Virus record (IMG/VR): IMGVR_UViG_3300044703_000147
Coordinates: 1 to 24,977 of that record
Length of the DNA stretch: 24,977 bases
Source of the DNA: a virus
Direction: 5' to 3' (one strand)
Shown here piece by piece: positions 8,987-24,977 of this stretch. The translations under genes were made by a program, and so were the position numbers. The notes below the pieces were generated by a model that saw only the letters and a list, made by a program, of their open reading frames with translations, was not told where the DNA came from and made no database searches. The first letter of the stretch is position 1, and each line of letters begins with the position of its first letter.

Positions 8987-9133
8987 TCATTCGGGGAGCA
9001 TCCCCAAGTCTTCGAGAGCCTCGTAAGCCGCGCATCGCTTTACGAGCCAGTCGTGCGCGCGTTTGAAGTTTTCCTCGTCTAGGTGTGCTTCCAGCACCCC
9101 TAAGATCGAATCCATGATCTCATCGTCGCTCAT
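8987..9133 (-). CDS. 48-aa acidic protein downstream of int2
   Basis: A small acidic protein (many Asp and Glu, predicted helical) whose ATG overlaps the stop of int2 in an ATGA arrangement, so it is probably translated by coupling. It is the last gene of element 2 before the attachment scar. The family is not recognised. The position next to integrase suggests, without proof, a modulator of recombination or a regulator expressed from the integrated state. Confidence 0.5.
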   Translation of the reverse strand: MSDDEIMDSILGVLEAHLDEENFKRAHDWLVKRCAAYEALEDLGMLPE

Positions 9134-10155
9134 CCTAAAGCCTCCGCTGCCCCTCTGAGAAAGTCGGGGTGATGGTGGCCGTACACCCGTTCCAACGTCT
9201 CGCGGCTCATTCCAAGGAAGCCTGCGGCTTCCCACATCGGCACGCCGCGTTGCATCAACCACGTTGCGCAACTGTGCCGCAGGACGTGCGGGCTCACGCC
9301 TTCCAAGCCCGCCTTGCGGCATGCCGTCGCGAAGCCGCGCTTCACGTCGCCGAGCCGCTTGCCGTTCTCATTGATCACGAAGCCCAGTTCTACGCCGCGC
9401 GGACGTGCGCGCCGCAGGTGGCCCAAGAGCTTCCCTGGAATCGGGATACGGGCGCGGCGCTTGTTCGTGCGGCGGGCCCCTGGCGTGTTGAAATCGATCC
9501 GCCCGCCATCAAGGTCCACCTGCGACCAGCGAAGCGACAGGATCGCTTCCTTGCGCGAGCCGGTGTAGAGACCGATCAGGATGAAGAGCGGAAGGTGCAG
9601 CCGCACACGAGGTTCGCGAAGAGCGGTCCGCAACAGGGCCGCCGCTTCCTTGCGGGTTAGCCATCGGTCGCGCGGCTCGGGACGGTCGGGCAGGTGGATC
9701 GCGACCATGCGCGTGAGCCGCCCCGCCTTGAACGAATGATTGATGGCAGCGCGAAGAATGCCAAGCTCGCGCCGAACGGTTCCCGCCGATCGGCCGCGCG
9801 ACTTCGCATAGGCGCGGCATGATTCCCGGTTGACCTCAGCGACGGTGCGGCCCTCCCACAGCGGCACGAGCCCTTTCTTGAGGGCTGCCGCTATCCGCCA
9901 CGGCGAAGCGGTTTCTTGCCCGTGCTCTTGCGCGTAGTCTGCCAGAACGTCGGTGATCAAGATCTGATTGGGATCACGCGGCCCGGCGTCTCGGGCACGG
10001 ATGTTGATGAATTCGGCAAGCGCGATTTCAGCGAGCTTGCTATCAGCAGTGCCCGTGCTGCGCTCCCGGCTGCGACCGTTTTCAGTCCAGACGATATAGA
10101 AGCACTCGCGCTTTTCGAGATAGCGGAGGCGGGCGCCTGAGTTTCGCCGTGGCAT
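9130..10155 (-). CDS. Tyrosine recombinase, integrase of element 2 (int2)
   Basis: A 341-aa phage integrase of normal size. An N-terminal arm-binding type segment (residues 10-35, with FYIVWTENGRSRERST) leads to a core-binding helical domain (about 65-150) and the catalytic domain. The catalytic residues are Arg201 (LYTGSRKEA), His290 and Arg293 (SPHVLRHS) and Tyr325 (ERVYGHHHP). The usual third His/Trp position reads Met (FLGMSRET), a variant I associate with this integrase group. It should insert and excise element 2. It is only 250 nt from the tRNA-Arg scar. Its start lies about 200 nt inside the preceding HTH gene, and its stop is coupled to the 48-aa gene. Confidence 0.92.
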   Translation of the reverse strand: MPRRNSGARLRYLEKRECFYIVWTENGRSRERSTGTADSKLAEIALAEFINIRARDAGPRDPNQILITDVLADYAQEHGQETASPWRIAAALKKGLVPLWEGRTVAEVNRESCRAYAKSRGRSAGTVRRELGILRAAINHSFKAGRLTRMVAIHLPDRPEPRDRWLTRKEAAALLRTALREPRVRLHLPLFILIGLYTGSRKEAILSLRWSQVDLDGGRIDFNTPGARRTNKRRARIPIPGKLLGHLRRARPRGVELGFVINENGKRLGDVKRGFATACRKAGLEGVSPHVLRHSCATWLMQRGVPMWEAAGFLGMSRETLERVYGHHHPDFLRGAAEALG

Positions 10156-10358
10156 GGTTGCACCGTGTTCTCTTGAATGAAACGCTCGATCGCATCGCGC
10201 GGGATCATCACTCGCTTGCCGACAAGGACGTGCGCGATACGTCCGTCGCGTACCAAGGCGCGGACTTGCGCTTCGGTTGGCCCCATAACCGTCGCCGCCT
10301 GTTTCGGGGTGGCGAGCATGGGGAGATCGTCAAGTCGGATCGCCGATTCCGTACTCAT
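9957..10358 (-). CDS. HTH DNA-binding protein, excisionase-like
   Basis: Residues 10-70 form a compact helix-turn-helix domain of the excisionase/AlpA-like kind (LATPKQAATVMGPTEAQVRA, then VGKRVMIPRDAIERFIQ), well suited to binding near the attachment site or the integrase promoter. The start at 10358 has a good AGGGGAG ribosome binding site and overlaps the previous gene in ATGA. The frame stays open for another 60 residues or so of Ser/Ala-rich sequence and overlaps the start of int2 by 199 nt. That tail looks like a shadow of int2, so the gene may have lost its original stop. Role in excision or control of int2 is inferred from domain and position. Confidence 0.7.
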   Translation of the reverse strand: MSTESAIRLDDLPMLATPKQAATVMGPTEAQVRALVRDGRIAHVLVGKRVMIPRDAIERFIQENTVQPCHGETQAPASAISKSASASISSGLKTVAAGSAARALLIASSLKSRLPNSSTSVPETPGRVIPIRS

Positions 10359-10489
10359 CGGCGCTCCCCTCGAATTGCAGCGGCGTCTGCATCCGGGAGA
10401 ACGAAAGCGCATGCTCGCGCAATCCTCCCGGCTTCCCGGATGCAGTACGCCGCGCCGCGCGACGTGATCATTGTGCCGGGAGAATCCAT
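10355..10489 (-). CDS. Small protein of 44 aa in the regulatory operon
   Basis: This short frame fits snugly between its neighbours: it begins 2 nt after the stop of the 70-aa gene and ends in ATGA overlap with the excisionase-like gene. The product is Ala/Arg-rich with one Cys pair (Cys16 and Cys27) and no recognisable domain. A GGAAAG about 13 nt upstream is only a fair ribosome binding site, so translation is probably coupled. The tight spacing is the main reason to believe it is real. Confidence 0.4.
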   Translation of the reverse strand: MDSPGTMITSRGAAYCIREAGRIARACAFVLPDADAAAIRGERR

Positions 10490-10491
10490 TG

Positions 10492-10704
10492 TCAGTTCGA
10501 CTTTCCGAGGGTCTGCCCGGATTCGAGCGCGACGGCAGCCTTGTGGAAGTAGCTCGCGGCTGGCGCGGCACCCCACAGTCTGTGAGCGGCATTCGAGCCG
10601 ACAACCAATAACGCGTCGATGATGTCTGCGGGCGAGACGCCTTCAGCTTCCAGTTCGGCCGCGAGACTTTTGACTGCTGCATGCGCCTTTTGAAGATCGC
10701 TCAT
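10492..10704 (-). CDS. Small helical protein of unknown function
   Basis: A 70-aa, Ala-rich, probably all-helical protein. Its first 45 residues alternate charged and hydrophobic positions, compatible with a coiled or three-helix fold. Its ATG overlaps the stop of the upstream HTH gene in ATGA, and the next gene starts 2 nt after its stop, so it is an internal member of the integrase-proximal operon. Small proteins at this place in phage-like elements are often regulators or antirepressors, but no homology is evident by eye. Confidence 0.5.
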   Translation of the reverse strand: MSDLQKAHAAVKSLAAELEAEGVSPADIIDALLVVGSNAAHRLWGAAPAASYFHKAAVALESGQTLGKSN

Positions 10705-10910
10705 TGCGCTACCTCACGCATCTTGCCGCGCACGCGCTCGGCGTCGGCGCGGACGATGGTCAGCGGCGATGTCTTGCCGTTCGGTTTGTACGCGAGCCCC
10801 TTGAGCGGGCCTTTTTTCGCCCAACGCATGACGGTGATCGGCGAGACTTCCAAAATCTCGGCGATAGCTTTAGCGCCGCGCACAAGGGCGCTCGGTTTCG
10901 AATTGATCAT
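10701..10910 (-). CDS. Small HTH regulator (Cro/AlpA-like)
   Basis: A 69-aa protein with a clear helix-turn-helix: GAKAIAEILEVSPITVMRW, then a basic wing (KPNGKTSPLTI) and a closing helix. This matches small phage DNA-binding proteins that read an operator with a recognition helix followed by a beta wing. I chose the ATG at 10910 because AGGA lies 9 nt upstream; an ATG at 10919 is directly adjacent to that AGGA and less likely. It precedes three coupled small genes and int2. It is likely an AlpA- or Xis-like activator of excision, or a Cro-like switch protein; which of these cannot be told from sequence alone. Confidence 0.65.
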   Translation of the reverse strand: MINSKPSALVRGAKAIAEILEVSPITVMRWAKKGPLKGLAYKPNGKTSPLTIVRADAERVRGKMREVAQ

Positions 10911-10957
10911 CCCGACCATTCCTAAAAGCTGTGGTGAGCCTCCATGACGCATACGAA

Positions 10958-11770
10958 TCACTCGACTGGATCGATGTAGAGAAGCCGGCGCATTGCGCTG
11001 CGCAGTGTGAGATCGGCGTTCACTCTCAATTTCGAAATCGGATTTTTCCAAGCGAACAGCGCCCGCGCCCTTTCATCATCCGTCGGCTTTTTCCACTGAT
11101 ACTTGCGAAGGTCGGGCGAGAGGGCGTAGCGCGAGTGGAAGTGACCCTTGGCCCAAGCGTTCTCGGGGGTCTCTTCGATCGGCTCGATCAGCTCATCCCA
11201 GACCGAACCCCACCAAACGACAATATCTGTTTGATCGGCGGTTAACTCGCCGGTCATGATCGGGCCTTCGCCACCGCTGTAGACGCTGACATAGCGCCCA
11301 TTGGTGATCTCGATGTGGTGATCAAATTCCTCGGCTTGAACGGGATTCTTCGGATCGAACCATCCGTGATTGATCCATCCCCACTGATCGCGCTCGCCGT
11401 ACTTTTCGGGCACGGGGCGCTTCGGCGGAAGCTTTGTGATCGGGTCCCAATCGCCCGACACTTCAAAAAGCTGCTGGATCGGATCGATGACATCGAACAT
11501 AAAATCTTCGGGCATCATGGACGCGTAGACGATTTTTCCCGCGACCTTGAGGCTCAGCCCGTGCTGATTCAGCGGGGCGATGATCGCCGCTCGCTTCACC
11601 ATCCGATCGTCCAAGAGCCGGGTTTTCGTTTTGGCCTGCGGCACCGCCTGGAGCACGCCGATCTTGAGAAGCTCGCGCTGCGCCCGCTCGGATAGGCCCG
11701 TCGCCCGCGTCACGTCCTCTGCCGTGAAGTGGCCCTTCCGGTAATAGATCAGGGCGTCGTCTAGCGTCAT
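10958..11770 (-). CDS. MerR-like HTH regulator, candidate master repressor of element 2
   Basis: The first 85 residues of this 270-aa protein read as a winged helix of MerR type: HFTAEDVTRATGLSERAQRE (HTH), a basic turn, then LDDRMVKRAAIIAPLNQHGLS. The rest is a Trp- and acid-rich globular domain (residues 100-270) that I do not recognise; it could be a ligand- or protein-sensing module. It stands first in the integrase-proximal gene set and has a strong minus-strand promoter only a few bases upstream (TTGACA-16-CATACT), with a palindrome between the boxes. That layout fits an autoregulated element repressor. Function is inferred from the HTH and the promoter; the repressor role is not shown directly. 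Confidence 0.55.
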   Translation of the reverse strand: MTLDDALIYYRKGHFTAEDVTRATGLSERAQRELLKIGVLQAVPQAKTKTRLLDDRMVKRAAIIAPLNQHGLSLKVAGKIVYASMMPEDFMFDVIDPIQQLFEVSGDWDPITKLPPKRPVPEKYGERDQWGWINHGWFDPKNPVQAEEFDHHIEITNGRYVSVYSGGEGPIMTGELTADQTDIVVWWGSVWDELIEPIEETPENAWAKGHFHSRYALSPDLRKYQWKKPTDDERARALFAWKNPISKLRVNADLTLRSAMRRLLYIDPVE

Positions 11771-11777
11771 GCCGCCT

Positions 11778-11805: not shown

Positions 11806-11837
11806 TGATCTTTGACGGCTAAATGTCTAACTTCGAT

Positions 11838-11856: not shown

Positions 11857-11865
11857 TCAGGCTAC

Positions 11866-12351
11866 TTATTGAAGTCCGGTTGTCGGCAGGTCCTTCAATG
11901 CTCCCGCGAAGGCCCGAATCGCCGCAGCGGAGTACTTCGGCTCATGCCAAGTGATCATGATCAGCCCCGCCCGCAGTGCAGCGGCATTCAGCGCCGCGCG
12001 GTCTGCGGCAGGGTCGGAGTCGTGCAGCTTGGCGAGCGTCGCCGTTATCTTCCCTACAGCGGCTTGTGTGACCTCAGCGGCGCCGCCCGCCGGGACCCAT
12101 GGCGCCGGGCGAGTGTAGCGCGAACTCAGCGCTACGCCCTTCTCAGCCGCGTCCGCTGCGGCGAGCAAGAGATCGCGAAGCGGCGCGCGATCATCCATCG
12201 TCACGGCCGCGTGTCCGATCGCGGCCGACAGGAAGCCCTTGGCAATTCCGAAGTCGCTTGCCGTCTTGCCGTAGTGATCAATGAACTGAGCAACGGCCGC
12301 CTCGATCTCGGCGGCCTTGGAATTAGTTTCGATTTTTCCGCGATCAGTCAT
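11866..12351 (-). CDS. Hypothetical protein, unknown function
   Basis: A 161-aa, alanine-rich, mostly helical soluble protein. Its first residues (MTDRGKIE) resemble those of the upstream 97-aa gene (MTERRKIE), which hints at a shared N-terminal tag or gene duplication. It begins 4 nt after the stop of that gene, so both belong to one operon. No signal peptide, membrane segment or catalytic motif is visible. Proteins of this kind occur in the accessory part of phage-like elements; function is unknown. Confidence 0.55.
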   Translation of the reverse strand: MTDRGKIETNSKAAEIEAAVAQFIDHYGKTASDFGIAKGFLSAAIGHAAVTMDDRAPLRDLLLAAADAAEKGVALSSRYTRPAPWVPAGGAAEVTQAAVGKITATLAKLHDSDPAADRAALNAAALRAGLIMITWHEPKYSAAAIRAFAGALKDLPTTGLQ

Positions 12352-12355
12352 CGGC

Positions 12356-12649
12356 TTAATTCAGTAGCCGCTTGATGTCGTCGGACGTCGCGCCCGTATA
12401 GCGGGCGATCTCAAGAGGGACCTTCGAAGGGTCGCCCGGTGCCGGATCGAGCGCCAGCACGACGACATAGTTCGGGAGCATCTGGACGTGCAGGTAAAGT
12501 TCGCCGCCCGCTTCTATGCGAGCCGCGACGCCAGCACGCGCGCCGTCTGGAAGGCCGTTCAACGCATTTGTCGTGATCGTCGCTGCGGCTTCCGCGAAGA
12601 TCGCTGCCGCGTCCGCGTCCATCTCTATTTTTCGACGTTCGGTCATCAT
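12356..12649 (-). CDS. Hypothetical protein, unknown function
   Basis: A 97-aa protein with an Ala-rich helical first half and a beta-rich second half (ELYLHVQMLPNYVVVLAL). Two consecutive ATGs (12649 and 12646) can start it; a GAGATGG stretch upstream serves either. It is followed after 4 nt by the 161-aa gene and preceded by the acidic 101-aa gene. The shared MT-x-R-x-KIE start with its downstream neighbour is the only relationship visible. Confidence 0.5.
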   Translation of the reverse strand: MMTERRKIEMDADAAAIFAEAAATITTNALNGLPDGARAGVAARIEAGGELYLHVQMLPNYVVVLALDPAPGDPSKVPLEIARYTGATSDDIKRLLN

Positions 12650-12658
12650 CGCACCATC

Positions 12659-12964
12659 TCATTTGTTTTGCCGATTCGAAACCCGCGCGGCGGGTCGTTG
12701 GGAATCAAAATCGTCAAGCAGTTGTTGCTCGATCTCATATCGCTCTAGGAGCAGGCGGCCGATGTCGGAGTCCGCAATCCGCGTCTCTCGCGCTCTCCAT
12801 TCTTCGGCCGTTTCACCCTCTTCCATCGCCTCTTCAAATTCCTCGATCAGTTGCTCGGCCTCGTCTTCGCCGAAACCGACCTCTGAGAGTGCAGCAAGCA
12901 CAGCCCTCGTCTTTGAGGCTAGAGCAGCGGAAAGGCGTTCATTCACTTTCATTTTCGCACTCAT
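12659..12964 (-). CDS. Acidic helical protein, unknown function
   Basis: A 101-aa protein with a basic first 20 residues and a very acidic centre (about residues 28-55, dominated by Glu), predicted as one long helix or coiled coil. The ribosome binding site GGGAGCGG is well placed before the ATG at 12964. Strongly acidic small proteins of mobile elements sometimes mimic DNA or bind basic host proteins; here this is only a thought based on charge. It follows a strong GC hairpin in the gap upstream. Confidence 0.5.
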   Translation of the reverse strand: MSAKMKVNERLSAALASKTRAVLAALSEVGFGEDEAEQLIEEFEEAMEEGETAEEWRARETRIADSDIGRLLLERYEIEQQLLDDFDSQRPAARVSNRQNK

Positions 12965-12994
12965 TGTCGCCGCTCCCGATATTGTTGAGACTGC

Positions 12995-13022
12995 CCCGCC
13001 CCGGCCGTGAAGCCGGGGCGGG
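12995..13022 (-). terminator. Strong GC-rich hairpin between two genes
   Basis: An 11-bp perfect stem (arms 12995-13005 and 13012-13022, nearly all G and C) closes a 6-nt loop. It lies just after the stop of the 140-aa gene and before the ribosome binding site of the 101-aa gene. No T-run follows on the minus strand, so it is more likely a processing or attenuation hairpin than a full intrinsic terminator. Confidence 0.35.
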
Positions 13023-13042
13023 CCATAAATCCGATTCGGAGC

Positions 13043-13465
13043 TTAGGCCAACTTGGCCCGCTTTGCGTGTTTGCCGTCCCGCCACGCGGCATCCGCCATC
13101 GGCGTCACGAAGGCGGCTACTTCATTCATGAAGACACGAAGAAACGCGAACTGCGTGGGGCTTGGCTGACCGTGCTGCGCCGTGTCGACTATAGCCGTGG
13201 CGACCCTTGCCTTTGCCTTGATCGCTGCTGCCGTTGTCGCGGGCTTCCCCGCAAACTTAAGGAGGACTTCGCCAGCATCGCCCATGAGCTTGCCGGCTAC
13301 GGGCGCCGCAAAGACGCTATCGCCCGTGGAGTCTGCGTTGAAGCACGCCGACGCCCCGCCGATCGCCGCCAAGTAGCGGACGCATCCGCCGATGATCGCC
13401 GCTTCCGTTGTGTCGCGCTTCGGCGCCGCGCGAGGGCGCTTCACAGCCTTGCGTGCCGCGCTCAT
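13043..13465 (-). CDS. Hypothetical protein, unknown function
   Basis: A 140-aa protein with a basic N-terminus (several Arg/Lys in the first 20 residues) and an Ala-rich helical body. The ATG at 13465 overlaps the stop of the upstream 276-aa gene in ATGA, which fixes this start against longer upstream options. No known motif was recognised. The basic leader might bind nucleic acid. It is followed by the GC hairpin at 12995-13022. Confidence 0.5.
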   Translation of the reverse strand: MSAARKAVKRPRAAPKRDTTEAAIIGGCVRYLAAIGGASACFNADSTGDSVFAAPVAGKLMGDAGEVLLKFAGKPATTAAAIKAKARVATAIVDTAQHGQPSPTQFAFLRVFMNEVAAFVTPMADAAWRDGKHAKRAKLA

Positions 13466-14292
13466 GCCACACCTTCCTGCGCGTACTGCGAGACGGTCAG
13501 GACAGCGCGAGCGAGCGCCGTTGTCAGCAGAACACGCATCGCGTGTTTCCATCCCATCACATCGTCGCCGAGTTCATCGGGGAGGATTGCCAATCGCGCG
13601 AAGATCGCGACGCCCGCCCATGTGCGAGGTTCGAGTTTCGCGGCTTCGTGGGCTAGGTGATTGATGTCCCATCGCACGGCTTCCAGGCGGTCAACGGCCG
13701 CGCGAATGCCTGAGACTTGAATCGCAGTCAGGCGTTGCCGTTCGTATTTTTCCGCGCGGGCGATCAGCCGGCGAAGGCGCGGGCCTTCGTGCTTCAACCC
13801 GTGCTGCTGGAGATAGGCGCGAGTGATCTTCGAATTGAGCACCTTCACCGGCATTCGGGCATAGCGCTTGCCGTCGGCGGCGACGTAGGTCTGAGGCTCA
13901 GGCCGATTGCCCTCAGCGTCCCGCACTTCCTCGCCGCACGCTTGCCGCCATGGATGCCCCGGCGGCAAGATCAAATCCGGGGGAGTACGTGGCGAAAGTC
14001 TTTCAGCCCAATCTCGCGCTTCGAGCCGCGCGGCATCGGCGGAACGGTAAGCAGCAACCATCCGCCCGATCTGGGCGCCGATCGCCATGATGGCTGATTC
14101 TTCCCGAATGACTGGCGCCAGCGCCGGGACGAGCGCGGGCGCGACAAGCGCCAGCGGTGCCGCCGACGCAACAACCGGAGCGCCGACGCATGCCACCGGC
14201 AACAAGGACGCAATGGAACGCATGATCGATCGTCTTGAAGGCAGAGGCGTGGCGCCGGCCGGGACGGCGCGGCGGGCATTCGTGATGGTCAT
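13462..14292 (-). CDS. Phage-type hypothetical protein with an export-like N-terminus
   Basis: A 276-aa protein. Residues 18-50 combine a twin arginine (SRRSIM) with a hydrophobic, Ala/Val-rich run, resembling a Tat-type or uncleaved signal. The rest (about 75-276) is soluble and Arg-rich, with long helices from residue 160. The ATG at 14292 was chosen because GGAG lies 9 nt upstream; an upstream GTG would add 10 residues. It is the first gene of a five-gene minus-strand group. I have the impression that similar genes occur in other Rhizobiales prophages, but no function is known to me. Confidence 0.5.
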   Translation of the reverse strand: MTITNARRAVPAGATPLPSRRSIMRSIASLLPVACVGAPVVASAAPLALVAPALVPALAPVIREESAIMAIGAQIGRMVAAYRSADAARLEARDWAERLSPRTPPDLILPPGHPWRQACGEEVRDAEGNRPEPQTYVAADGKRYARMPVKVLNSKITRAYLQQHGLKHEGPRLRRLIARAEKYERQRLTAIQVSGIRAAVDRLEAVRWDINHLAHEAAKLEPRTWAGVAIFARLAILPDELGDDVMGWKHAMRVLLTTALARAVLTVSQYAQEGVA

Positions 14293-14460
14293 GATGGCGT
14301 GCTCCATGTTGATAGGAGCCACAGCCAGGCGGAATGCCGGATGGTTTTTTGATATTGATTGAGTCGGTCATCGGTCGCCCTGCTATGGCGGTTGATGGCA
14401 AGTCGCGGCCCGGAGGTTCCAACTCCGGGTCGCGGCGCTTATTGAATCTGATTTGCCGCC

Positions 14461-15160: not shown

Positions 15161-15463
15161 ATGGCGCTGGATGATTTTGAAGTTGTTCTGTTCTATGATG
15201 GCCGTAGTGGCACCCTCGAACATGACGGACACTCTTACCCAATTGCGGCATTTGGCGGCACATGCCCCGATGTTGGAGATCGCATACTGAATCCAGGTGC
15301 TTCACCGCGCGCTGGTGAAACGAAGATCGATTTCAATGATCCCGAGCGGCGGACTTTTTGGAAAGTGAAGGAGCGCATCTTCATGCCCGATGCCAAGCCA
15401 CCGCGTTGTATCCTCGTTGCGGAGAACGTTCAGGCGACCATGCGCGAGTCCACATTACTTTGA
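15161..15463 (+). CDS. Hypothetical protein, second gene of the plus-strand pair
   Basis: A 100-aa soluble protein, acidic and beta-rich in its first half, with a central Gly/Pro segment (GGTCPDVGDRILNPG) and a mixed C-terminus. The ATG at 15161 has AAGGA 9 nt upstream. It starts 25 nt after the Cse60-like gene and ends 12 nt from the convergent stop of the cold-shock gene, so the two plus-strand genes form a small insert between minus-strand operons. No family is recognised. Confidence 0.5.
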   Translation: MALDDFEVVLFYDGRSGTLEHDGHSYPIAAFGGTCPDVGDRILNPGASPRAGETKIDFNDPERRTFWKVKERIFMPDAKPPRCILVAENVQATMRESTLL

Positions 15464-15475: not shown

Positions 15476-15685
15476 TCACAGCAGCCGAAGATTGATTGCC
15501 TTCGTTCGCTGCGTCTTGCTGTTCGATCCGATCTCATAGGAGATCGCGTTGCCGGGCCGCAGAAGATCGAGGCCAGCGTCTTGAACCGCAGTGACATGAA
15601 CGAAAATGTCATCCACCCCATCATCGGGCGCGATGAAGCCGTACCCCTTGTCGCTGCTAAACCACTTCACCTTTCCGCTCGGCAT
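15476..15685 (-). CDS. csp: Cold-shock domain protein
   Basis: A complete 69-aa CspA-type protein. It has the RNA-binding motifs RNP1 (KGYGFI, about residues 12-17) and RNP2 (DIFVHV, about 26-31), preceded by the usual GKVKWF start. Such proteins bind single-stranded RNA or DNA and melt secondary structure. The ATG at 15685 has a GGGAG ribosome binding site and lies 13 nt after the large terminase stop, so it is the last gene of the capsid/packaging operon. A phage-borne Csp is not rare, but its place in a late operon and near an array of hairpins is suggestive. Confidence 0.9.
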   Translation of the reverse strand: MPSGKVKWFSSDKGYGFIAPDDGVDDIFVHVTAVQDAGLDLLRPGNAISYEIGSNSKTQRTKAINLRLL

Positions 15686-15698: not shown

Positions 15699-17300
15699 TC
15701 AGACAAAAAGAAACCCATCCGGCCGCGCTTCCGCGTTGCTGTAGACAGACGCGTTCGCGTCGCCGGCCGCCGCACGCGATACCGCCATCCACGCCGCCGC
15801 CGCGCCATCGATCCGATCTCGCGACAGACCTTTGTGCATCACGCGGTTGCCCGCGCTGTCGGTCTTGATCACGATATTTTCGAAATTCCAGCGCAGCACG
15901 GGGTGCCCGCCGTGGCGGAATTTCCGGCTGATGATCGCGCGCTCTAACAGATTGAGCGCTGGCGATTGCGTCACCCAACCTTGCTGCAGGGTGACAACCG
16001 GAAAACCATCTTCAAGCAGCGGGCCTATGACCGGCTGCGCATAGGCTCGGTCGAATGAGATTTCGCGCACGTCATAGGTGGCGCACAGATCGCGGATATG
16101 AAGTTCGATCGCGCGGAAGTCGACCGCGTTCCCAGGCGTCGCCGTGATGAAGCCTTCTTTCGCCCAACGCGGGTATGGCACTTGATCACGATCCGCGCGG
16201 ACCTGAAGGTTGTCTTGCGGAACGAAGAACCACGCCCATACATCGAACCCGTCATCGTCATCCGGCCACGCCGCGAACACGGCCGCGAGATCGGTTGTTG
16301 ATGACATGTCGCCGGATACCCAGCACGGTCGCCCACGAAGCTTTTCAAGATCAACTGCAATTGCGCCTTCGTCATAGACGGCGATGTCGACAAACGGCGC
16401 CGTTGAATGCTGCTGACGAATGCCAAGGTGGAATTGCTGAAACGCGGCGCGATCCGCCGGGCGCTCGCGCGCCTCAAGTGAGAGTTGCCGCAGTGATGGC
16501 AAGTCCGGATAACCATAACGAAGGCCGGGATTGACGGCGTGCCAGATCGCTTCATCGGTCCAATCGCAATCGGCCGGCGCTTCGAAGATGATCGGCAAAA
16601 AACTCGGATCGATGATCTCGCCCGACGCAACCTTCTTTGCATATTCGTAAATCGGAAAATCAGGCGTGTTCGTTCCGGCCCCGGCCGTCGTGGTGATCAC
16701 AAGCAACGAGCCCGCCACCTTGGCGAGGCCGGTTCGGATCGCGTGCCATAGCCCGTCTTTTTTGTGCGCCCACAATTCGTCAACGAGCGCGAACGACGGT
16801 GTGCGCCCGAACTGCGTCGCGGCGTCGGCGCTGATCGCCTCATAGACCGCGCCAGACTTCGGATGAACAATCCGGTTTTTGAAATCCTGCACACGTGCAG
16901 CATTTTTCAGCGCGGGCGTTGCGGCGATGATCCCACACGCCTCATCGAACGCGATGCGCGCTTGCTTCCGATCGGCCGCAGCCGAGAGGCTTTGCCCGCC
17001 CTCGATCCGTTGCGGGCCGAATGTGTGCAAGAGCTCGAGCGCGGCGCCGAGTGAAGTCTTGCGGTTGCCGCGTCCGACTTGCAAATAGACCACGCGGCAC
17101 AGCCGATTTCCGTCCGCGTCGCACGGGCCATAGATTTTCTGGATGATGCGCGTCTGCCATTCATCGAACGTCAACGCGCGATCCGGCTTTCGGCTTTTCG
17201 GATGATGCAGGATGCCGAGAAATTTCAGCGCACGCGCCGCGTCGCCGCGCGGATCATCAATCGGAGATCCATCAAAGAGCCATTCGGGACCGGACAGCAT
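15699..17300 (-). CDS. terL: Phage terminase large subunit (HK97-like)
   Basis: A 533-aa packaging motor protein of the Terminase_1 type. The ATPase part has a Walker A-like VGRGNRKTS (Lys81, Thr82), in a variant form with Arg in place of the usual Gly, and a Walker B FALVDELW (Asp174, Glu175). The nuclease part carries the expected acidic residues: Asp331 (SGDMSS), Asp417 (ISFDRAY) and Asp495/Asp498 (DRIDGAAA). It should cut concatemeric DNA and pump it through the portal. It overlaps the end of the small terminase by one base. Length and motif order are complete, so the gene appears intact. Confidence 0.95.
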   Translation of the reverse strand: MLSGPEWLFDGSPIDDPRGDAARALKFLGILHHPKSRKPDRALTFDEWQTRIIQKIYGPCDADGNRLCRVVYLQVGRGNRKTSLGAALELLHTFGPQRIEGGQSLSAAADRKQARIAFDEACGIIAATPALKNAARVQDFKNRIVHPKSGAVYEAISADAATQFGRTPSFALVDELWAHKKDGLWHAIRTGLAKVAGSLLVITTTAGAGTNTPDFPIYEYAKKVASGEIIDPSFLPIIFEAPADCDWTDEAIWHAVNPGLRYGYPDLPSLRQLSLEARERPADRAAFQQFHLGIRQQHSTAPFVDIAVYDEGAIAVDLEKLRGRPCWVSGDMSSTTDLAAVFAAWPDDDDGFDVWAWFFVPQDNLQVRADRDQVPYPRWAKEGFITATPGNAVDFRAIELHIRDLCATYDVREISFDRAYAQPVIGPLLEDGFPVVTLQQGWVTQSPALNLLERAIISRKFRHGGHPVLRWNFENIVIKTDSAGNRVMHKGLSRDRIDGAAAAWMAVSRAAAGDANASVYSNAEARPDGFLFV

Positions 17301-17818: not shown

Positions 17819-18186
17819 CGGAACAACCCTTCCGCGCGGACGGGATTTCCGAATCCGCCTTCACGGCTCGCCGACTTCCGGCTGTTGCAGCCGCGCGCCA
17901 TCGGCTGCCAATTCGTCTTGTCCCAGAACAGCCGCAGGTTCCCCTTATGCGGGATGCGATGGTCGACCATGTTGGCGACCTGTCCGCAGCCGCACGCGCA
18001 AAATCTGTTTCCAGGCATCGCGAGGAATTCCTTCGACTCGCGTTCCCATCTTTTGTCATAGCCGCGCTGCCGCGCATTCGGGCGGCTGCGCTCGACCTCG
18101 ATCCTGCGTCGCTGTGAGCAAATGCAGGTCGCGCCACTCGCAACCAAGAGGCCACAGCCGCAAATTCGTGGGGCGATCCTCGGCAT
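17815..18186 (-). CDS. HNH endonuclease of the packaging module
   Basis: A 123-aa nuclease. The active-site motif appears as VDHRIPH (Asp75, His76), Asn92 in TNWQPM, and CNSRKS (Cys100-Lys104). Cysteine pairs around residues 63-67 (CACGCG) should bind structural zinc. HNH proteins encoded beside P27-type small terminases in HK97-like phages assist TerL in cutting at cos sites. The ATG at 18186 is 5 nt after the previous gene's stop, and its own stop overlaps the terS start (ATGA). A longer upstream frame exists but would lie inside the 129-aa gene. Confidence 0.88.
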   Translation of the reverse strand: MPRIAPRICGCGLLVASGATCICSQRRRIEVERSRPNARQRGYDKRWERESKEFLAMPGNRFCACGCGQVANMVDHRIPHKGNLRLFWDKTNWQPMARGCNSRKSASREGGFGNPVRAEGLFR

Positions 18187-18583: not shown

Positions 18584-18994
18584 TTAGGCAACGCTTACCT
18601 TCACGCTGAATGCCGTGTTGCTGTACGTGCCCGTCGTGGTGATCTTCGCGCGAAGCGCTGACCCTAGGATTCCGTCAATTGCGGTATCATCCGCCATCGA
18701 TCCGTCGCTCGGCGTTAGCTGCGTGAGCTTCGGCGTGAGCTTGCTGAAATTCAGCAGTACGGTCTCGCTGGCCGCACCGAATGCGATACAAGCGATATCG
18801 ATCCACGTCTGCCCATCATCCAATGTCGTTTGGATGTATGCCTTCGCGGTGGTCCCGCCCGAACCCCATGACAGCTTCGCCTCGACAGTGGCGGCGAGCA
18901 TCCCTTCCAGATTTTGGATGGGAGTTTGCGCAACCCCTGACAGCGCCGTCGTGATTGCAAGATCGCACAGTGAGTAATCGCCGGGGTTCAACAT
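18584..18994 (-). CDS. Virion-associated hypothetical protein
   Basis: A 136-aa, beta-rich protein (alternating Thr/Val/Ile; segments such as GTTAKAYIQTTLDDGQTW and NTAFSVKVSVA at the end). It looks like a small jelly-roll or Ig-type structural protein. It starts 7 nt after the connector's stop and ends 2 nt before the head-closure gene, so it belongs to the head/neck operon. A neck or decoration role is inferred from context and beta content only. The start at 18994 was taken because upstream sequence overlaps the connector gene. Confidence 0.5.
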   Translation of the reverse strand: MLNPGDYSLCDLAITTALSGVAQTPIQNLEGMLAATVEAKLSWGSGGTTAKAYIQTTLDDGQTWIDIACIAFGAASETVLLNFSKLTPKLTQLTPSDGSMADDTAIDGILGSALRAKITTTGTYSNTAFSVKVSVA

Positions 18995-19001
18995 TTGCTT
19001 T

Positions 19002-19589
19002 TCATCCGCCTGCTGGCTTGCGCAGTTTCTCAATGAGATTTTCAGCTTCCGGCGAGGATCCCGCGTCGAAATACGAGGATGATCCGGCGCCGTCCGTCGT
19101 CTCGCTGCGGAGCATTGGATCGCGCGGCGCGGAGTAGCGATATTGATTGACGAAGATGATCGCCAAGCGCTCGACGCCTTCCGGGAGATCACTGATCGCT
19201 GCGTAGCCCGCCGTGTAGGTCACGACGATCTTGCCGCGCGGCCAATGCCAGCCGCGGTCATCGCGCAGCCGGTTCAGTTCGCCGGTTTGAGTGACAAGCT
19301 CATAGTCCGTCGTTTCGAGCGTCGAATCGTTTTCGACAATCGACGCGATCGCGCTCACGGGAAAGCGGCTCAGTAGCAATCCATCTTGCCGGCATGTGAG
19401 GCGGAACGTTTCGCTGACCGTCTCTTCCGCGAACACGCGGTTCAATCGTTTCGAGACTTCACCGCTCGCTTGGGTGATCCAGCGCGCAAGCTTTTCATCT
19501 TCGCTGCGATCGGTGATGCCAAGCTCCGATTTCACCGTGGCGAGCAAGGTGAGATCGTAGCTCTCGGCGGGCGTCGTGACGGTGAGCAT
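19002..19589 (-). CDS. gp6-like head-tail connector protein
   Basis: A 195-aa protein with the typical beginning of gp6-like connectors: an early helix with LATVKSELGITDRSEDEKLARWITQA, meaning a four-helix domain that docks onto the portal ring, then a strand-rich segment (VVTYTAGYA, DLPEGVERLAIIFVNQY). In HK97-like phages this ring forms the first connector between portal and tail. I chose the ATG at 19589 with its AGGACAAG site; an upstream GTG at 19682 would add 31 very basic residues. It marks this element as having a head prepared to accept a siphovirus-type tail. Confidence 0.75.
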   Translation of the reverse strand: MLTVTTPAESYDLTLLATVKSELGITDRSEDEKLARWITQASGEVSKRLNRVFAEETVSETFRLTCRQDGLLLSRFPVSAIASIVENDSTLETTDYELVTQTGELNRLRDDRGWHWPRGKIVVTYTAGYAAISDLPEGVERLAIIFVNQYRYSAPRDPMLRSETTDGAGSSSYFDAGSSPEAENLIEKLRKPAGG

Positions 19590-19721: not shown

Positions 19722-20147
19722 TTACGTTCCGATTGCAGTCCATCCGAAGGTTTCGGTGCCGGTGGATGCGATCAGGGTCGGGTCGGAGTTGCTGGTTGGT
19801 TTCCACGCGTAGACCGACACGGTTCCGGCTGAGGACGTGTAAGTCAGTGTCGTGGTGCCGACGCCTGGCGCGGCCGATCCCTTCAGCGTGGCAGAGAAGC
19901 CCGTGACAGTACTGAGGCCGGTCACCACCGGCGTCGGGTTTGATCCGTCCAGCGCCGTCTCGCCTCGGGCAACCAGATAGCCTGCGGCGACGCCAGCGGT
20001 CGGGGCGGCGACGGCTGCGGCGAGCGCCGCCGTCTTGTCGGCGCCCGCGATCTTCAACGCGCCACCGGAGACGATATCGATTTCGCCTCCGATGACGGTG
20101 CGAGCGCCGCCCTGCTCGTTATAGTTTGCGACGTTCGCCGCGCTCAT
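19722..20147 (-). CDS. Virion fibre- or decoration-like protein
   Basis: A 141-aa protein that starts with NYNEQGGARTVIGGEIDIVSGG, a pattern known from small phage head-fibre or decoration proteins. A low-complexity Ala stretch follows, then a beta-rich, Thr/Ser/Gly-rich C-terminal domain that reads like a short fibre or Ig fold. Its ATG overlaps the previous gene's stop (ATGA). It lies two genes after the capsid gene, the normal place for capsid decoration proteins. Exact role is inference. Confidence 0.55.
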   Translation of the reverse strand: MSAANVANYNEQGGARTVIGGEIDIVSGGALKIAGADKTAALAAAVAAPTAGVAAGYLVARGETALDGSNPTPVVTGLSTVTGFSATLKGSAAPGVGTTTLTYTSSAGTVSVYAWKPTSNSDPTLIASTGTETFGWTAIGT

Positions 20148-20584
20148 GACGTTGCCTGGGTGACCGGGGCGCTGTTCGGATCGCCCAAGATGCACAAGAC
20201 GCTGAGCAGAGCCGCGCTGGCATTGGCGGCCGGCGTGATGGTCATGCGGGTGTATTGCTTGAAGCCGATATAGCCGAGCTTGCGGACCTGATTGTCGCTG
20301 TCGAAGGCGAAGGCAGCGGCCGTTTCCGGTGCGGTCCCCGTCGTCTGCGAGATCATATCCGCGTCGGCGACGGCAACAGCGCCGGTCATGTCGGATGCGT
20401 CGCTCTCTTCGAGCAGAACAACCGCCGTCATGTCCGCGTCGGCAATCGAGCCGAGCGCAATGACGTAGGTTGCGCTCTCATAGCCCAGATGATTGATGAT
20501 CTGGCCGACTTGCGCGGTATTGTCGCCAACCGAAACGGGAGAGATAACCCGCTTCACTTGGATGTTGTGTGCCATGTCTTCCAT
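20144..20584 (-). CDS. Capsid-proximal virion-type protein
   Basis: A 146-aa protein with IQVKRVISPVSVGDNTAQVGQII near the start and a C-terminal GYIGFKQYTRMTITPAAN followed by LLSVLCILGDPNSAP. I recognise this as a type found just after the capsid gene in many proteobacterial phages, probably a capsid-associated or decoration protein, though its function is not firmly known to me. The ATG at 20584 has GGAG 7 nt upstream. A 16-bp palindrome (20622-20637) lies in the short gap between this gene and the capsid gene. Confidence 0.6.
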   Translation of the reverse strand: MEDMAHNIQVKRVISPVSVGDNTAQVGQIINHLGYESATYVIALGSIADADMTAVVLLEESDASDMTGAVAVADADMISQTTGTAPETAAAFAFDSDNQVRKLGYIGFKQYTRMTITPAANASAALLSVLCILGDPNSAPVTQATS

Positions 20585-20621
20585 GGAAGTTCTCCGAATT
20601 GAAAATTGGGTTGAGGCCGCA

Positions 20622-20637: not shown

Positions 20638-20653
20638 GGCGATCCGGGGTTGA

Positions 20654-21817
20654 TCAGCTCGTGGCGATCTTCAGCTTGCGGATCGTTTCCGCGCGCACCA
20701 CGCGGGCGCCGACACGGCGCCGAGCATGGAAGCGGGTGAGCCCGCTGGTTGCTTGCGTGTAGGGATCGCGGATCAGGGACAGCGCCACGCGATCGTAAAT
20801 CCGGAAGCCACTGGCGAAATCGCCGAAGGCAACCGGATAGGCGTTCGCGGCGATGTCGGGCATGTCGACGGCTTCGACCGCCGGTCGCCCAAGGATCGTT
20901 TCCGGCTGCCCCGCCGCAAGGCCGGGTTGCCAGAGATATTGACCCTGACCATCCTTCAGCTTGCGGATCGCGGCGAGCGTCGACCCGTTGAGCATGAACA
21001 CGGCTCGCTGCCGATAGAACGGCGCGAGCGCGTAGAAGAGATCGATCAGGCCATCGGCCTGGATCAGCGTGGCATGGCCGCCGGCGGTATAACTCAGGTT
21101 GGTGTCGCTCATGAAGCCGAGCGGCTTCTTGGTGCCGTTGCCCGAGACGAAGGCCGCGCCTTCCGCGCGTCCGAACTCTTCGGCAACGTCGAAAGCGACC
21201 TCCGCGCCTACGTCGACCGCAGCGTCTTCCAACAGCTTGTTGGAAACATCGACGTAGCAGGCCATTTCATCGATCGGAATTTCCGCCTGCCCGTAGGTGC
21301 TTTCGCTTTCGGTACGGGTTTCCGTCTCGCCAACCCAACTGGCGGTCGGGCGTCCCGTGCGCTTCGGGATGATCACAGCGCCGCTGGCCGTCTGTCCGAC
21401 GCGAGCCGCTTGCCGAACGGGCGAATATTGGACGATATTTTTGTCGACCTCCGCGACGAAATCCTCTTCGGCGAGATAGCCGCCCGCTGTGTCATCGGAC
21501 ATGCGCAACGTCTTGACCTCATCGGCGGAGAGCGCTTCGCGGCCTTTGCGGAGGAAGGTTTCGAACGCCTTGCGCTCGATCACCTTCGTTTCGGATTTGA
21601 TTTCCGCGCCGGGCCGCTTCGCCTTCGCGACCTCGATGTCAACTTTGTCGTTGACCTTTTTGATTTCGCCCGTGATGCCAGCGAGCTTTTGATCGAGCGC
21701 AGCCGAAAGCGCCTCGATCGCCTTCACGGGATCAGGATCGCCGCCACTTTCGTCCTTGAATTCGAGCGGCGTGAGGGCGGTATGCCCGCGCCAATCGTTA
21801 TCGCGATAGTGTTTCAT
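20654..21817 (-). CDS. HK97-family major capsid protein
   Basis: A 387-aa capsid protein. Residues 1-95 form a charged, coiled-coil delta domain that acts as internal scaffold and is normally removed by the protease. The mature fold begins around SDDTAGGYLAEEDF, followed by VIIPKRTG, ASWVGETET (E-loop region), the long spine helix (about 200-230) with GRAEGAAFVSGNGTKKPLG, and the A-domain with LNGSTLAAIRKLKD and ILGRPAVEAVDMP. Several hundred copies would form the shell. The start overlaps the protease stop (ATGA), so expression is tightly coupled. The gene looks complete. Confidence 0.95.
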   Translation of the reverse strand: MKHYRDNDWRGHTALTPLEFKDESGGDPDPVKAIEALSAALDQKLAGITGEIKKVNDKVDIEVAKAKRPGAEIKSETKVIERKAFETFLRKGREALSADEVKTLRMSDDTAGGYLAEEDFVAEVDKNIVQYSPVRQAARVGQTASGAVIIPKRTGRPTASWVGETETRTESESTYGQAEIPIDEMACYVDVSNKLLEDAAVDVGAEVAFDVAEEFGRAEGAAFVSGNGTKKPLGFMSDTNLSYTAGGHATLIQADGLIDLFYALAPFYRQRAVFMLNGSTLAAIRKLKDGQGQYLWQPGLAAGQPETILGRPAVEAVDMPDIAANAYPVAFGDFASGFRIYDRVALSLIRDPYTQATSGLTRFHARRRVGARVVRAETIRKLKIATS

Positions 21818-22356
21818 GCTCGTAGGGCCTCCGTTGCCCTGTTGATGGCCGCCACGAGCGCCCGCGCGCGCTCCGGGTCATGCCCCTTGACTGATGCAAC
21901 GGTCGCGCGGGGGTTCATCGGGAAGGTCACAATCGAAATTTCGGGAACGTCCATCTCTTCGAGGAAGCGAATTCCCTTCGCGCGATCGAAGCGGTCTTTG
22001 ACGGCGCGGAAGCCGGGCGAGAGGCCGTCCAGCGCGCCAGCGCGCATCAGCGCGTGGACCTCGCGACCCTTCGTCGTTTCCAAAATCAGTTTGCCTTTGG
22101 CGCGGAGGCCTTTTTGATCTTCGGTGAGATCAAGCCAAATTCCGATCGGTTCGGACGGATCGTGCTGAAACAGCATCTTCACCTTCTCAGGCGGACGCTT
22201 TTGCAGCGACTTCGCATAGGCACCCTGCACAACCACGTCGCGGCCGAAATCGACGTTGCCGAACACGCTGGCGTAGCCCGTGAACTCGCCTTCGGCAGTG
22301 ACCGATTTCAAATCGAGATCAAATGCAACGCCGTGTTCGTTGTTGTTGCTGCTCAT
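21814..22356 (-). CDS. HK97 prohead protease
   Basis: A 180-aa serine protease of the prohead (U35/S78-like) type. It has GYASVFGNVDFGRDVVVQGAY near the start, catalytic His65 in FQHDP, Ser113 in DGLSPGF and a third catalytic acid probably at Glu139 (VPEISIVTFPMNP). It should cleave the capsid delta domain and itself during prohead maturation. It overlaps the portal gene on one side and the capsid gene on the other by ATGA, the classic portal-protease-capsid trio. Confidence 0.93.
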   Translation of the reverse strand: MSSNNNEHGVAFDLDLKSVTAEGEFTGYASVFGNVDFGRDVVVQGAYAKSLQKRPPEKVKMLFQHDPSEPIGIWLDLTEDQKGLRAKGKLILETTKGREVHALMRAGALDGLSPGFRAVKDRFDRAKGIRFLEEMDVPEISIVTFPMNPRATVASVKGHDPERARALVAAINRATEALRA

Positions 22357-23555
22357 GCGACCACTCGCGGCTTCGACCGAACCGGCGGCGCGATCGGGAG
22401 CGGCGTCGCGTTCGGTGAGATGTTGGGGTTCGCGAATTCATCGCCGCCCTGGTAGGGCGCCATGTTTTCCTTCGCGCGAGCTTCATTCGGATTGAGAATT
22501 CGCGACTGGATCGCTTGCGCGTAGGCCGCAAACCGTGCCGCGATGTCGGCCTTTACAAGCTCGTCGACCATGAATTCGGCGTAGTATTTCGCCTGTTCGT
22601 CAGCCGATAGCAGCCGAGCAACCGCGCCTTGCCACAGCTTCATGCGCGGCAGGATCGTGAAGGCGAGAAATGTCTGTGACATTTCCTCGGCGTTCGCCCA
22701 GGTGGCGCGGCCGAGCTCCTGCATCAGTGTCGGCGGCACGCCCAACGCTCGCGCGATCTCGACAACTTGGAACGCGCGCATTTCGCTGAATTGCATGTCG
22801 ACGCTGTTGAAAGTCAGCGGCGTAAAGTCACCATCGTCTTCAATGATCGCGGTCTTGCCGGCGTTCTCGCCGCTGTGCCCCGACGCCCACGACTTCATCA
22901 GTCGCGCATAGGTCACGTCATCAAGCTTCCGCTTGAATTTCAGCACGCCAGCCGGACGCGCACCGTTGCCGAAGAGCGATCCCGCGTGGCGTTCCATCGC
23001 CATCGTCAAGCCGATGGCTTCGCGGGCCTGCCAAATCGGCGCAACGTTTCCGCGATTTGGAATGTGTAGGATGTCGCGCCACGGATAATTGATCTTCGTA
23101 CCGTTTGCGATGGTGAGATCGTAAATCGGCTCAAGTGAAACCGGATCGATCCTCACTGAGACGGCGTTCGGCGGGAGCCGGATCAATTCGACGATTTTGT
23201 CACCGGACCTATTCGCGAGCGCGAAGGCGCCATGATGCGTGATGGTGTCCTGCTCCATCTGCATGATGAATTCTGGAGCGCTGGTCCACCCGTTCGGACG
23301 ATCGTGAAGCAGCTTGTAAAGCGGATGATCGGTCGCGCGGTCCTTTTTGCCGGCCGCATCCTTCACGTAGAGATGCAGCGGAAGAGCGCCGAGCGTTTCG
23401 CAGCGAACGCGAGTGCCCGCTAGAACCGGAATGCAACGAAGCGCGACCTCGGGCGACACGGCGATATTAGCCGCCGTCTGCATACCGATGCCGAGCAGCA
23501 CGTCCCACGTGCTGTCGCTCTTGCGTTCGAAGAATTTGAGAAATCTGCCGAGCAT
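22353..23555 (-). CDS. Phage portal protein (HK97 type)
   Basis: A 400-aa portal subunit; twelve would form the DNA entry ring at one capsid vertex. Recognisable parts are the N-terminal VALRCIPVLAGTRVRCETLGALPLHLY, the stretch HPLYKLLHDRPNGWTSAPEF, the wing region with RLPPNAVSVRID, and the stem/crown with QVVEIARALGVPPTLMQEL followed by TFLAFTILPRMKLWQ. I chose the ATG at 23555 (GGAA 4 nt upstream); other ATG/GTG starts up to 23633 are possible. It is the first gene of the head block and is followed by the protease in ATGA overlap. Confidence 0.93.
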   Translation of the reverse strand: MLGRFLKFFERKSDSTWDVLLGIGMQTAANIAVSPEVALRCIPVLAGTRVRCETLGALPLHLYVKDAAGKKDRATDHPLYKLLHDRPNGWTSAPEFIMQMEQDTITHHGAFALANRSGDKIVELIRLPPNAVSVRIDPVSLEPIYDLTIANGTKINYPWRDILHIPNRGNVAPIWQAREAIGLTMAMERHAGSLFGNGARPAGVLKFKRKLDDVTYARLMKSWASGHSGENAGKTAIIEDDGDFTPLTFNSVDMQFSEMRAFQVVEIARALGVPPTLMQELGRATWANAEEMSQTFLAFTILPRMKLWQGAVARLLSADEQAKYYAEFMVDELVKADIAARFAAYAQAIQSRILNPNEARAKENMAPYQGGDEFANPNISPNATPLPIAPPVRSKPRVVA

Positions 23556-23798
23556 TTTTTCCGGGACCATCCCGCGCCAACGTTGCGAGCGTTCGCGGAA
23601 TCCGTCACGAAAATACCGACCGACTTTGAGCAATTGCGATCAACTGCGCTCACAAAAAGACTGACAACAAAAGGGGTTTTGAATTCGGACCCATATCGCG
23701 CGGTTGACCCACGCGGTCCCCGCTCCCTACTGCCGAAAGTCTGCGACCAGGGGGGGGTGGCACGCCAACCCGCGCGCTTTTTATCAGCGCAACTTTCG
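23556..23798. other. Gene-poor gap with a G8 tract upstream of the portal gene
   Basis: About 240 nt without a convincing gene. A run of eight G (23750-23757) in a GC-rich context (GCGACCA-G8-TGGC) lies upstream of the whole head/packaging operon. G-rich cohesive ends occur in several HNH/P27-type phages, so this is one candidate cos region. The region could also hold the late promoter, but no clear boxes were found. Confidence 0.35.
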
Positions 23799-23996
23799 CT
23801 AATTTCCTTCGACCGGCTGACCATCCTTCACGATGATCCGCACCGCCGACGCAGCGCCGAACGTGCCGAGCTTCCTATCATCATGTCTGTGTTGCTTGCG
23901 CTGCGTCCACTTCGACGCGACGGCATCGCGCACGCCGCCACTCGCACGCGCCGCCGCGCGCAGATACTTCCGTCTCTTGCTGTTTCGCTGCTTCAT
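23799..23996 (-). CDS. Small basic protein, unknown function
   Basis: A 65-aa protein with a very basic first half (Lys/Arg clusters within the first 15 residues and again at 28-42) and a short hydrophobic-beta C-terminus. A strong GAAGGAAAG ribosome binding site lies 6 nt before the ATG at 23996, in the 11-nt gap after the preceding gene, which is the best argument that it is real. Its charge suggests nucleic-acid binding. No family recognised. Confidence 0.5.
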   Translation of the reverse strand: MKQRNSKRRKYLRAAARASGGVRDAVASKWTQRKQHRHDDRKLGTFGAASAVRIIVKDGQPVEGN

Positions 23997-24007
23997 CTAT
24001 CTTTCCT

Positions 24008-24259
24008 TCAGTGCTCGTGCCGACTGGTGAGCGTTTGTTGGTAGGCCATAGGATGACACGCCCCAGCAGAGCCGGAGCGCGTTCCCATGACCAACGTCGT
24101 GCCGACCGGAGCCGCGCCCGCCGTATAGGCCCGCAGACAGCGCGTGGTCGCGCCTGCGTTGGCACCTACTGTGACGGCGTATCCACTTCGCCGCTCATCA
24201 CCCCTCGTGCCGCTAGGATCAGGGTTGCGCTTGATGAGGCCCCACGGTTGCGCAGTCAT
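24008..24259 (-). CDS. Small hypothetical protein upstream of the head operon
   Basis: An 83-aa protein with a Gly/Thr/Ala-rich, beta-like middle (SGYAVTVGANAGATTRCLRAYTAGAAPVG broken by turns) and a His/Ser-rich tail. The ATG at 24259 has only an AGGGG immediately upstream, so the start is uncertain. It lies 67 nt after the 216-aa gene and 11 nt before the 65-aa gene, on the same strand. It may be a minor virion protein or a chance frame; evidence is mainly position. Confidence 0.35.
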   Translation of the reverse strand: MTAQPWGLIKRNPDPSGTRGDERRSGYAVTVGANAGATTRCLRAYTAGAAPVGTTLVMGTRSGSAGACHPMAYQQTLTSRHEH

Positions 24260-24326
24260 CCCCTATCGCCGCCGTCGTCGTGTCGTTACCGACCAGCGCA
24301 GAGGAACACGGTTTACAAAAGCTTTG

Positions 24327-24977
24327 TCAGGCAGCGCGCGTTGCGCGCGGAATCACCATCGCGAGACGCGCTCGCATCTGTTCGCAATGCTCATTGCTGA
24401 ATTCGATTAGAGGCTCGGCGGCGAGCATCTTGCGTAGCGTGTCGGCTTGCGCCTTCACCTTCCACTTCTCGAATAGCGCGACCTTGCGCAGTTCGGCCGG
24501 GGCAGGGCGCCAGTGATAGTCGTAAGGATCGCCGCGCTCATTCACGCCGCAGTCGCCGCGATACCAAAGCCGCACGGCAGAGGCGACGGCCCATGTCGGC
24601 AAATCCTCAAGAGCCATCTGGAACGCTTCGCCGCTCGCTTCCGCGCCCGCCTCGTTCTGTTGCGACGATGGCAGGGCCAGCATCAGCTTTGTCACCACAA
24701 CCAACGTGGCGCATTCCCATTGATCATCCTCAAGCGGCGTCTGTGAGCATAGCGAGTCGAGGGCGGCGACGTGGCGTTCGATCTCAGCGCGCTCGCCTTG
24801 GCTCAAGGTCAAGCGTGCCGGTAACGTTGGCACCGTCCTGCCCTGCTGAAACTCGTCTTTCATCGATGCGACGCGCGAGCTTGCCCATTCCGGCAAGGAT
24901 GGCAGCCGATCCAGTCGGCGCACGTCCGGGAGGGTTAGACGTTCCGGGGCCTTGGCCCCGATAGCTGGGAGGGCCAT
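24327..24977 (-). CDS. Phage-type protein of unknown function at the right edge
   Basis: A 216-aa protein whose ATG is the last codon of the window, so its upstream context is not visible. It begins with LPAIGAKAPERLTLPDVRRLD, followed by KDEFQQGRTVPTLPARLTLS, a helical stretch with VVVTKLMLALPSSQQNE, and AVRLWYRGDCGVNERGDPYDYHWRPAPAELRKVAL. I recognise this layout from Rhizobiales prophages, where such genes lie near early or replication genes, but the function is not known to me. If that holds here, the sequence right of the head block is the early region and not a tail module. Confidence 0.6.
   Translation of the reverse strand: MALPAIGAKAPERLTLPDVRRLDRLPSLPEWASSRVASMKDEFQQGRTVPTLPARLTLSQGERAEIERHVAALDSLCSQTPLEDDQWECATLVVVTKLMLALPSSQQNEAGAEASGEAFQMALEDLPTWAVASAVRLWYRGDCGVNERGDPYDYHWRPAPAELRKVALFEKWKVKAQADTLRKMLAAEPLIEFSNEHCEQMRARLAMVIPRATRAA

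Follow-up and report, generated by a model that had tools for sequence, protein, structure and literature searches.

A putative capsid-forming phage satellite integrated at a tRNA-Arg gene, and its relatives in Alphaproteobacteria

Introduction

Capsid-forming phage-inducible chromosomal islands (cf-PICIs) are integrated elements that carry genes for portal, protease, capsid, adaptor, closure protein, HNH endonuclease, TerS and TerL, have no tail genes, and average about 14 kb (PMC10803314, PMC13230959). Their capsids fall into three clades (PMC11389934). A tail-less head and packaging module is also present on the circular plasmid TG54 of Vibrio, a satellite plasmid (cf-PISP) with partition genes that groups with the cf-PICIs of Gammaproteobacteria (PMC13230959). 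Capsid-forming satellites have been described for Gammaproteobacteria and Firmicutes; earlier reports from Alphaproteobacteria may exist, our coverage of the literature being incomplete.

Here we analyse the entire IMG/VR record IMGVR_UViG_3300044703_000147 (24,977 bases, hereafter the window), which contains an island running from a tRNA-Arg remnant to the contig end. The island is very probably an integrated phage satellite that forms its own capsids and attaches them to the tails of a helper, in the manner of the cf-PICIs. It has their head and packaging gene set, no tail or lysis gene among the open reading frames (ORFs) of the window, with the right end judged by synteny, and an integrase with site-specific tRNA insertion; one attachment (att) site lies in the window itself, and att repeats are seen in bounded relatives. 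Its size is also comparable, at an estimated 16.7 kb or so (14.4-18.5 kb in relatives).

Results

Gene content and limits of the island

Read from right to left along the minus strand, the island encodes a 216-aa protein, portal, S78 protease, HK97-type capsid, 146-aa and 141-aa proteins, adaptor, 136-aa and 129-aa proteins, HNH, TerS, TerL, a cold-shock protein, five cargo ORFs, regulators and the integrase (Table 1; relatives are cited by our G and L handles). A first-pass annotation of this DNA had proposed a full head set of portal, protease, capsid and connector, an HNH-TerS-TerL packaging set, an integrase and an excisionase-like gene, all of which are borne out by profile matches. The MerR label it gave to the 270-aa protein found no support in Pfam, and MerR-type proteins do occur among the genes of relatives. 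The proposed tRNA-Arg site was likewise correct, with the island start moving from 9130 to the remnant at 8837; ARAGORN found no whole tRNA in the window.

Table 1. Features of the island, in order of window position
Feature	Position	Strand	Evidence
Attachment site, integrase-side end of element: 46-nt tRNA-Arg 3' half	8837..8882	-	blastn 93% over 46 nt to Neomegalonema tRNA-Arg nt 32-77
Tyrosine integrase, 341 aa	9130..10155	-	PF00589 3.7e-15
Excisionase/AlpA-type HTH_17 (helix-turn-helix, HTH) protein, HTH residues 17-64; frame overlaps integrase start	9957..10358	-	PF12728 3.6e-8
70-aa conserved protein beside regulators	10492..10704	-	homologues in G001, G010
69-aa HTH_17-like regulator	10701..10910	-	PF12728 1.6e-3, weak, below cut-off; homologues in 8 elements
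270-aa putative regulator	10958..11770	-	homologues in G003, G008, G010; no Pfam match
Cargo region, five ORFs (161, 97, 101, 140, 244 aa)	11866..14196	-	no convincing family match
100-aa protein, opposite strand, conserved in L083/G006	15161..15463	+	32-35% to L083 and L090; no Pfam match
Cold-shock-domain protein, 69 aa, adjoins TerL	15476..15685	-	PF00313 1.5e-19
TerL, 533 aa	15699..17300	-	PF20441 1.1e-29 (nuclease), PF03354 2.9e-15 (ATPase)
TerS, P27 / Terminase_4 type	17300..17788	-	PF05119 1.3e-12
HNH endonuclease	17815..18186	-	phrog_2323 7.6e-17; PF01844 weak
Predicted head stopper/closure protein, 129 aa	18192..18581	-	AlphaFold pLDDT 81; Foldseek best matches are neck stoppers
136-aa predicted beta-sandwich neck protein	18584..18994	-	AlphaFold pLDDT 91; position as in siphophage-like contig L163
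Head-tail adaptor/connector	19002..19589	-	phrog_442 4e-30, PF05135 3.8e-4
141-aa head-module protein	19722..20147	-	81% to L083; phrog_12102 1.4e-9 (family without known function)
146-aa protein directly after capsid gene	20144..20584	-	phrog_5707 2.5e-26; 39-43% to post-capsid gene of three tailed phages
Major capsid protein, HK97 type	20654..21817	-	PF05065 4.8e-82
Prohead protease S78	21814..22356	-	PF04586 2.5e-35
Portal protein	22353..23570	-	PF04860 3e-86
216-aa conserved protein, element's first gene; ATG is the contig's final codon	24327..24977	-	72% to G002, 46% to G001 and G003

The right end of the island falls beyond position 24977. The start of the 216-aa gene aligns with that of its 72% identical relative in L004, and the distance from the start of its homologue to the attachment end is 511 bp in G003, 558 bp in G002 and 573 bp in G001, with zero genes called in between. 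By synteny, about 0.5 kb of the island would lie to the right of the contig, which gives the full size estimated above and leaves nearly no room for hidden tail genes. Tail genes between position 24977 and the right attachment site, where the first-pass annotation had advised looking for them, are thus very unlikely.

The head appears to be a finished one. The 129-aa protein, earlier called closure-like, matches no sequence family, though its AlphaFold model matches phage head stoppers. Foldseek placed the neck of phiCD508 first (2.4e-4), followed by those of SPP1 (gp16), the Rhodobacter capsulatus gene transfer agent (RcGTA), T4, T1, lambda and Chi; E < 0.001 was reached for phiCD508 only, with the set of necks consistent, and the modelled fold is that of a head stopper. 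Its profile is weakly linked to the 117-aa closure protein of L163, which itself matches Hc1. The 136-aa protein, among the most conserved of the window-type genes, gave no significant or clear PDB match in the fold search, and its homologue in L163 sits between the adaptor and the closure protein. Both proteins keep 60-72% identity in G005, G006 and G010, despite a TerL of a different type there (27-33%). What is conserved is thus a complete head with its stopper face presented.

Absence of tail and lysis genes

Pfam and PHROGs searches gave no match to tail, holin or lysin families among the island ORFs scanned, as the first-pass annotation had claimed, and the tail tube, tape measure, tip and lysis genes of a complete tailed (pro)phage were not found in the window. 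In all nine tailed-phage records read in the same kind of window, annotated tail genes follow the capsid gene; in the tailed phages compared, the terminase comes first and the tail genes lie within about 6-9 kb. A scan of 148 non-core proteins from 16 related elements without a labelled tape measure gave, among the matches listed (the best 25 of 123 PHROG and 25 of 32 Pfam families), mostly primases and proteins of replication; two tail terminators and a single tape measure (Gellertiella) also appeared.

These data bear on whether the element could be a small phage able to propagate by itself, with tail proteins that have diverged beyond recognition. The five cargo ORFs without a function would offer a place for them, and relatives do carry a tape measure and, in one branch, a tail tube. 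However, outside TerL, portal and capsid the window ORFs are too short to encode a tape measure or hub. The cargo also varies among relatives and the head module does not, the opposite of the pattern expected if the cargo encoded an indispensable tail. We consider such a phage very improbable.

An alphaproteobacterial family of mobile elements

Searching 84,980 species genomes for the portal returned 55 loci, about 47 of them alphaproteobacterial; further loci came from viral contigs and plasmids, and wider flanks were fetched. Seventeen elements are bounded by tRNA direct repeats of 17-89 bp (chance expectation 0.00025 exact 17-mers per case). They measure 14.4-18.5 kb (median 16.2 kb), use twelve tRNA types, come from many families of Alphaproteobacteria, and have in common the order portal-protease-capsid-neck-TerS-TerL with the integrase at one end (for G003 the gene caller gave a short one or none). 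Isolates with a bounded copy include Azorhizobium doebereinerae, Aureimonas sp. AU12, Gellertiella hungarica and Vineibacter terrae. TerL relatives with at least 41% identity and a mapped neighbourhood show the same organisation, and those at about 30% sit in ordinary terminase-first phages. The nearest relatives of the window element are found in Reyranellaceae and Bosea, so that the host group is the Alphaproteobacteria and not, as first suggested, Rhizobiales in particular.

Circular plasmid forms of 16.9-23.4 kb also exist: Roseomonas pTT14-8 (L094, 16.9 kb), Methylorubrum pMPOP02 (L095) and one from Paracoccus (L096, 17.5 kb), the latter two also with tube/chaperone-type or tape-measure genes. 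The relatives have primases and phage-defence cargo among their accessory genes, a content in keeping with life as a satellite: G003 has DarTG, G001 a gene resembling PD-T4-5 and G010 a candidate PDC-S05. In the bounded window-type element G003 the DarG/DarT toxin-antitoxin pair (L005, 13513-15455) lies between TerL and the regulators.

Head genes without tails, and defence genes among the cargo of relatives, would also be compatible with a domesticated head-only system, either like a gene transfer agent or making heads for defence or cargo release, and not a mobile satellite. The integrase, the excisionase-type gene, the att repeats at many tRNA genes and the patchy occurrence (a group portal at E <= 1e-110 in 4 of 192 genomes drawn from the class, the centre included) show mobility instead, and the element's own TerS, HNH and TerL suggest self-packaging. 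Of the explanations we weighed, domestication is the one we find hardest to credit.

Some candidates, all small circular or short records, did not hold. Salmonella phage As1, an E. coli plasmid and Klebsiella phage ST899-OXA48phi17.2 were rejected as satellites, being ordinary tailed phages or pieces of them.

Selection and phylogeny of the head genes

Against the nearest relative, L002, the ratio of nonsynonymous to synonymous substitution rates (dN/dS) is 0.10 for portal and capsid. Against G001-G003 it is mostly 0.15-0.35, with the stopper and the 136-aa neck protein at 0.12-0.35, all ratios being rough with dS near or above 1. As judged from these substitutions, the head genes are under purifying selection, their function maintained. 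In the trees, the window portal belongs to an all-satellite clade of 15 rows (support 100/100) and the window TerL to another of 38 rows (SH-aLRT, an approximate likelihood-ratio support, 98), each without a sampled phage. The TerL proteins of other family members cluster with phages, which indicates exchange of packaging cassettes. Among 50,697 phage records, the nearest portal and TerL reach at most about 35% identity and the nearest capsid 48% over three quarters of the protein.

Such results would not be expected of a prophage in decay after a recent loss of its tail and lysis genes. The head genes are indeed all phage-derived, and some relatives (G003, G042) have truncated integrase or tape-measure frames. 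Yet the same content and size recur in the 17 bounded elements at their twelve tRNA types, dN/dS stays at about 0.1-0.35, the reading frames are intact and tightly packed, the gene order is specific to the family, and its clades contain no phages. A defective prophage is therefore an unlikely origin.

Tail genes within the family

Taken globally, the bounded relatives lack full tails, a point that the first-pass annotation had asked to have checked, but many carry a tape measure and one branch adds further tail genes. The window-type elements (the window, G001, G003, G005, G006, G009 and G010) go no further than the head stopper. In other members TerL is followed by a tape measure, of PF20155 type in G002 and L101 and of PF06791 type in L131 and L116. 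A third branch adds a tube, TAC_11 and TAC_6 chaperones and a terminator, with bounded examples in Sphingobium (G028) and Sinorhizobium (L097); the remaining genes scanned in these two included no recognisable tip or hub. Isolates with tube-carrying relatives include Sphingobium jiangsuense and Sinorhizobium meliloti Ak57. In the portal tree, elements with a tape measure are interspersed among those without even in the clade of the window, which points to repeated gain or loss in the family.

We tentatively propose, at somewhat less than even confidence, a graded series of satellites: head to stopper (the window), head with tape measure (e.g. G002, G023, G035), and head with tube, chaperones, terminator and tape measure and no recognisable tip (G028, L097). 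If so, the tube-carrying members would need a helper for no more than the adsorption tip and lysis, and a tape measure brought by the element itself would determine how long the partly stolen tail becomes.

Members carrying tube and tape measure also occur in Bartonella genomes (L126, L128, L129). The record of G007 holds two different members in succession on one contig (L169, L170), one window-type and one tube-carrying. A plasmid-database 'vanY' glycopeptide-resistance label at L097 26142-28859, repeated in L098 and L099, is a misannotation of a VanY peptidase domain inside a tape-measure-like protein. L009 and L010 are compact elements in which a terminase-like gene, protease and capsid are directly followed by a tape-measure-like gene, with no recognised portal; they are perhaps another satellite type.

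Neighbouring genes and other features of the window

About 100 bp from the tRNA-Arg fragment lies a second tyrosine integrase (PF00589 + DUF6538; 6925-8736, minus strand). To its left are a helicase-like 656-aa gene (PF04851; 3879-5849, plus strand) and a 561-aa gene (2055-3740, plus strand). These genes probably belong to another element, inserted in tandem with the island at this tRNA-Arg; the patterns tried in viral contigs found no relative of the helicase-like gene.

Within the island, the cold-shock gene adjoins TerL also in G010. Two strong neighbouring hairpins with 13- and 14-bp stems (14365-14442, plus strand; z-score -2.9) lie between the cargo ORFs and the TerL side. They may be a terminator, an origin or a packaging signal; an Rfam FinP match at the same position was discarded as below the gathering score.

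Discussion

Mechanistically, upon induction by a helper phage, the integrase and the excisionase-type protein would excise the element from the tRNA-Arg gene. Portal, protease and capsid protein would build its own HK97-type heads, which HNH, TerS and TerL would fill with the element's own DNA. The adaptor and stopper would then close the head, leaving exposed the face normally bound by a tail terminator, and this stopper face would dock on the tail terminator of the helper. The co-resident helper phage would thus supply tail, host recognition and lysis, allowing transfer to new cells.

Several points weigh against a tail-borrowing satellite. The right attachment site of the island is outside the contig. 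Pfam, PHROGs and BLAST would not detect a highly diverged tail gene, and five cargo ORFs lack a function; rare weak matches among the relatives may also have fallen outside the best-matching families considered. Many relatives have a tape-measure gene, needless for a strictly tail-borrowing element. No primase was recognised in the window. As to regulation and replication of the PICI type (Stl/AlpA, primase-replicase), HTH_17 proteins are present in the window and primases in many relatives. The first-pass annotation's call of a tailless, cf-PICI-type satellite stands as to the satellite, through gene content and bounded relatives, while 'tailless' describes only one state in the family.

A broad alphaproteobacterial family, spanning symbionts, soil and aquatic genera, would make head-only satellites a recurrent lifestyle and a likely route for the transfer of genes and defence cargo in this class. 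With the tape-measure and tube carriers among the relatives, it also becomes testable how much of a virion has to be encoded by the satellite itself and how much may be borrowed.

Among described systems, RcGTA shares the head-stopper fold predicted for the window, and its TAC_11 chaperone is found in the tube-carrying relatives. RcGTA has a full tail and, to our knowledge, neither integrase nor att site. HK97/ST64B-type and alphaproteobacterial siphophages (Rhizobium phage RHph_X2_25, L163) have homologous portal, protease, capsid and post-capsid proteins, with L163 also sharing the adaptor and the 136-aa neck protein. These phages differ in their complete tails, much larger genomes and terminase placed before the portal, and their head genes are mostly 25-48% identical to those of the window. 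Plasmid TG54 finds a parallel in the plasmid forms of Roseomonas and Paracoccus, whereas the window holds an integrated element from another bacterial class. With the cf-PICIs, the differences are the lack of a recognised primase in the window and the tape measure or tail tube of some of its relatives. The best reading of the genomic evidence is that the family works like the cf-PICIs, a likeness judged by their described gene content.

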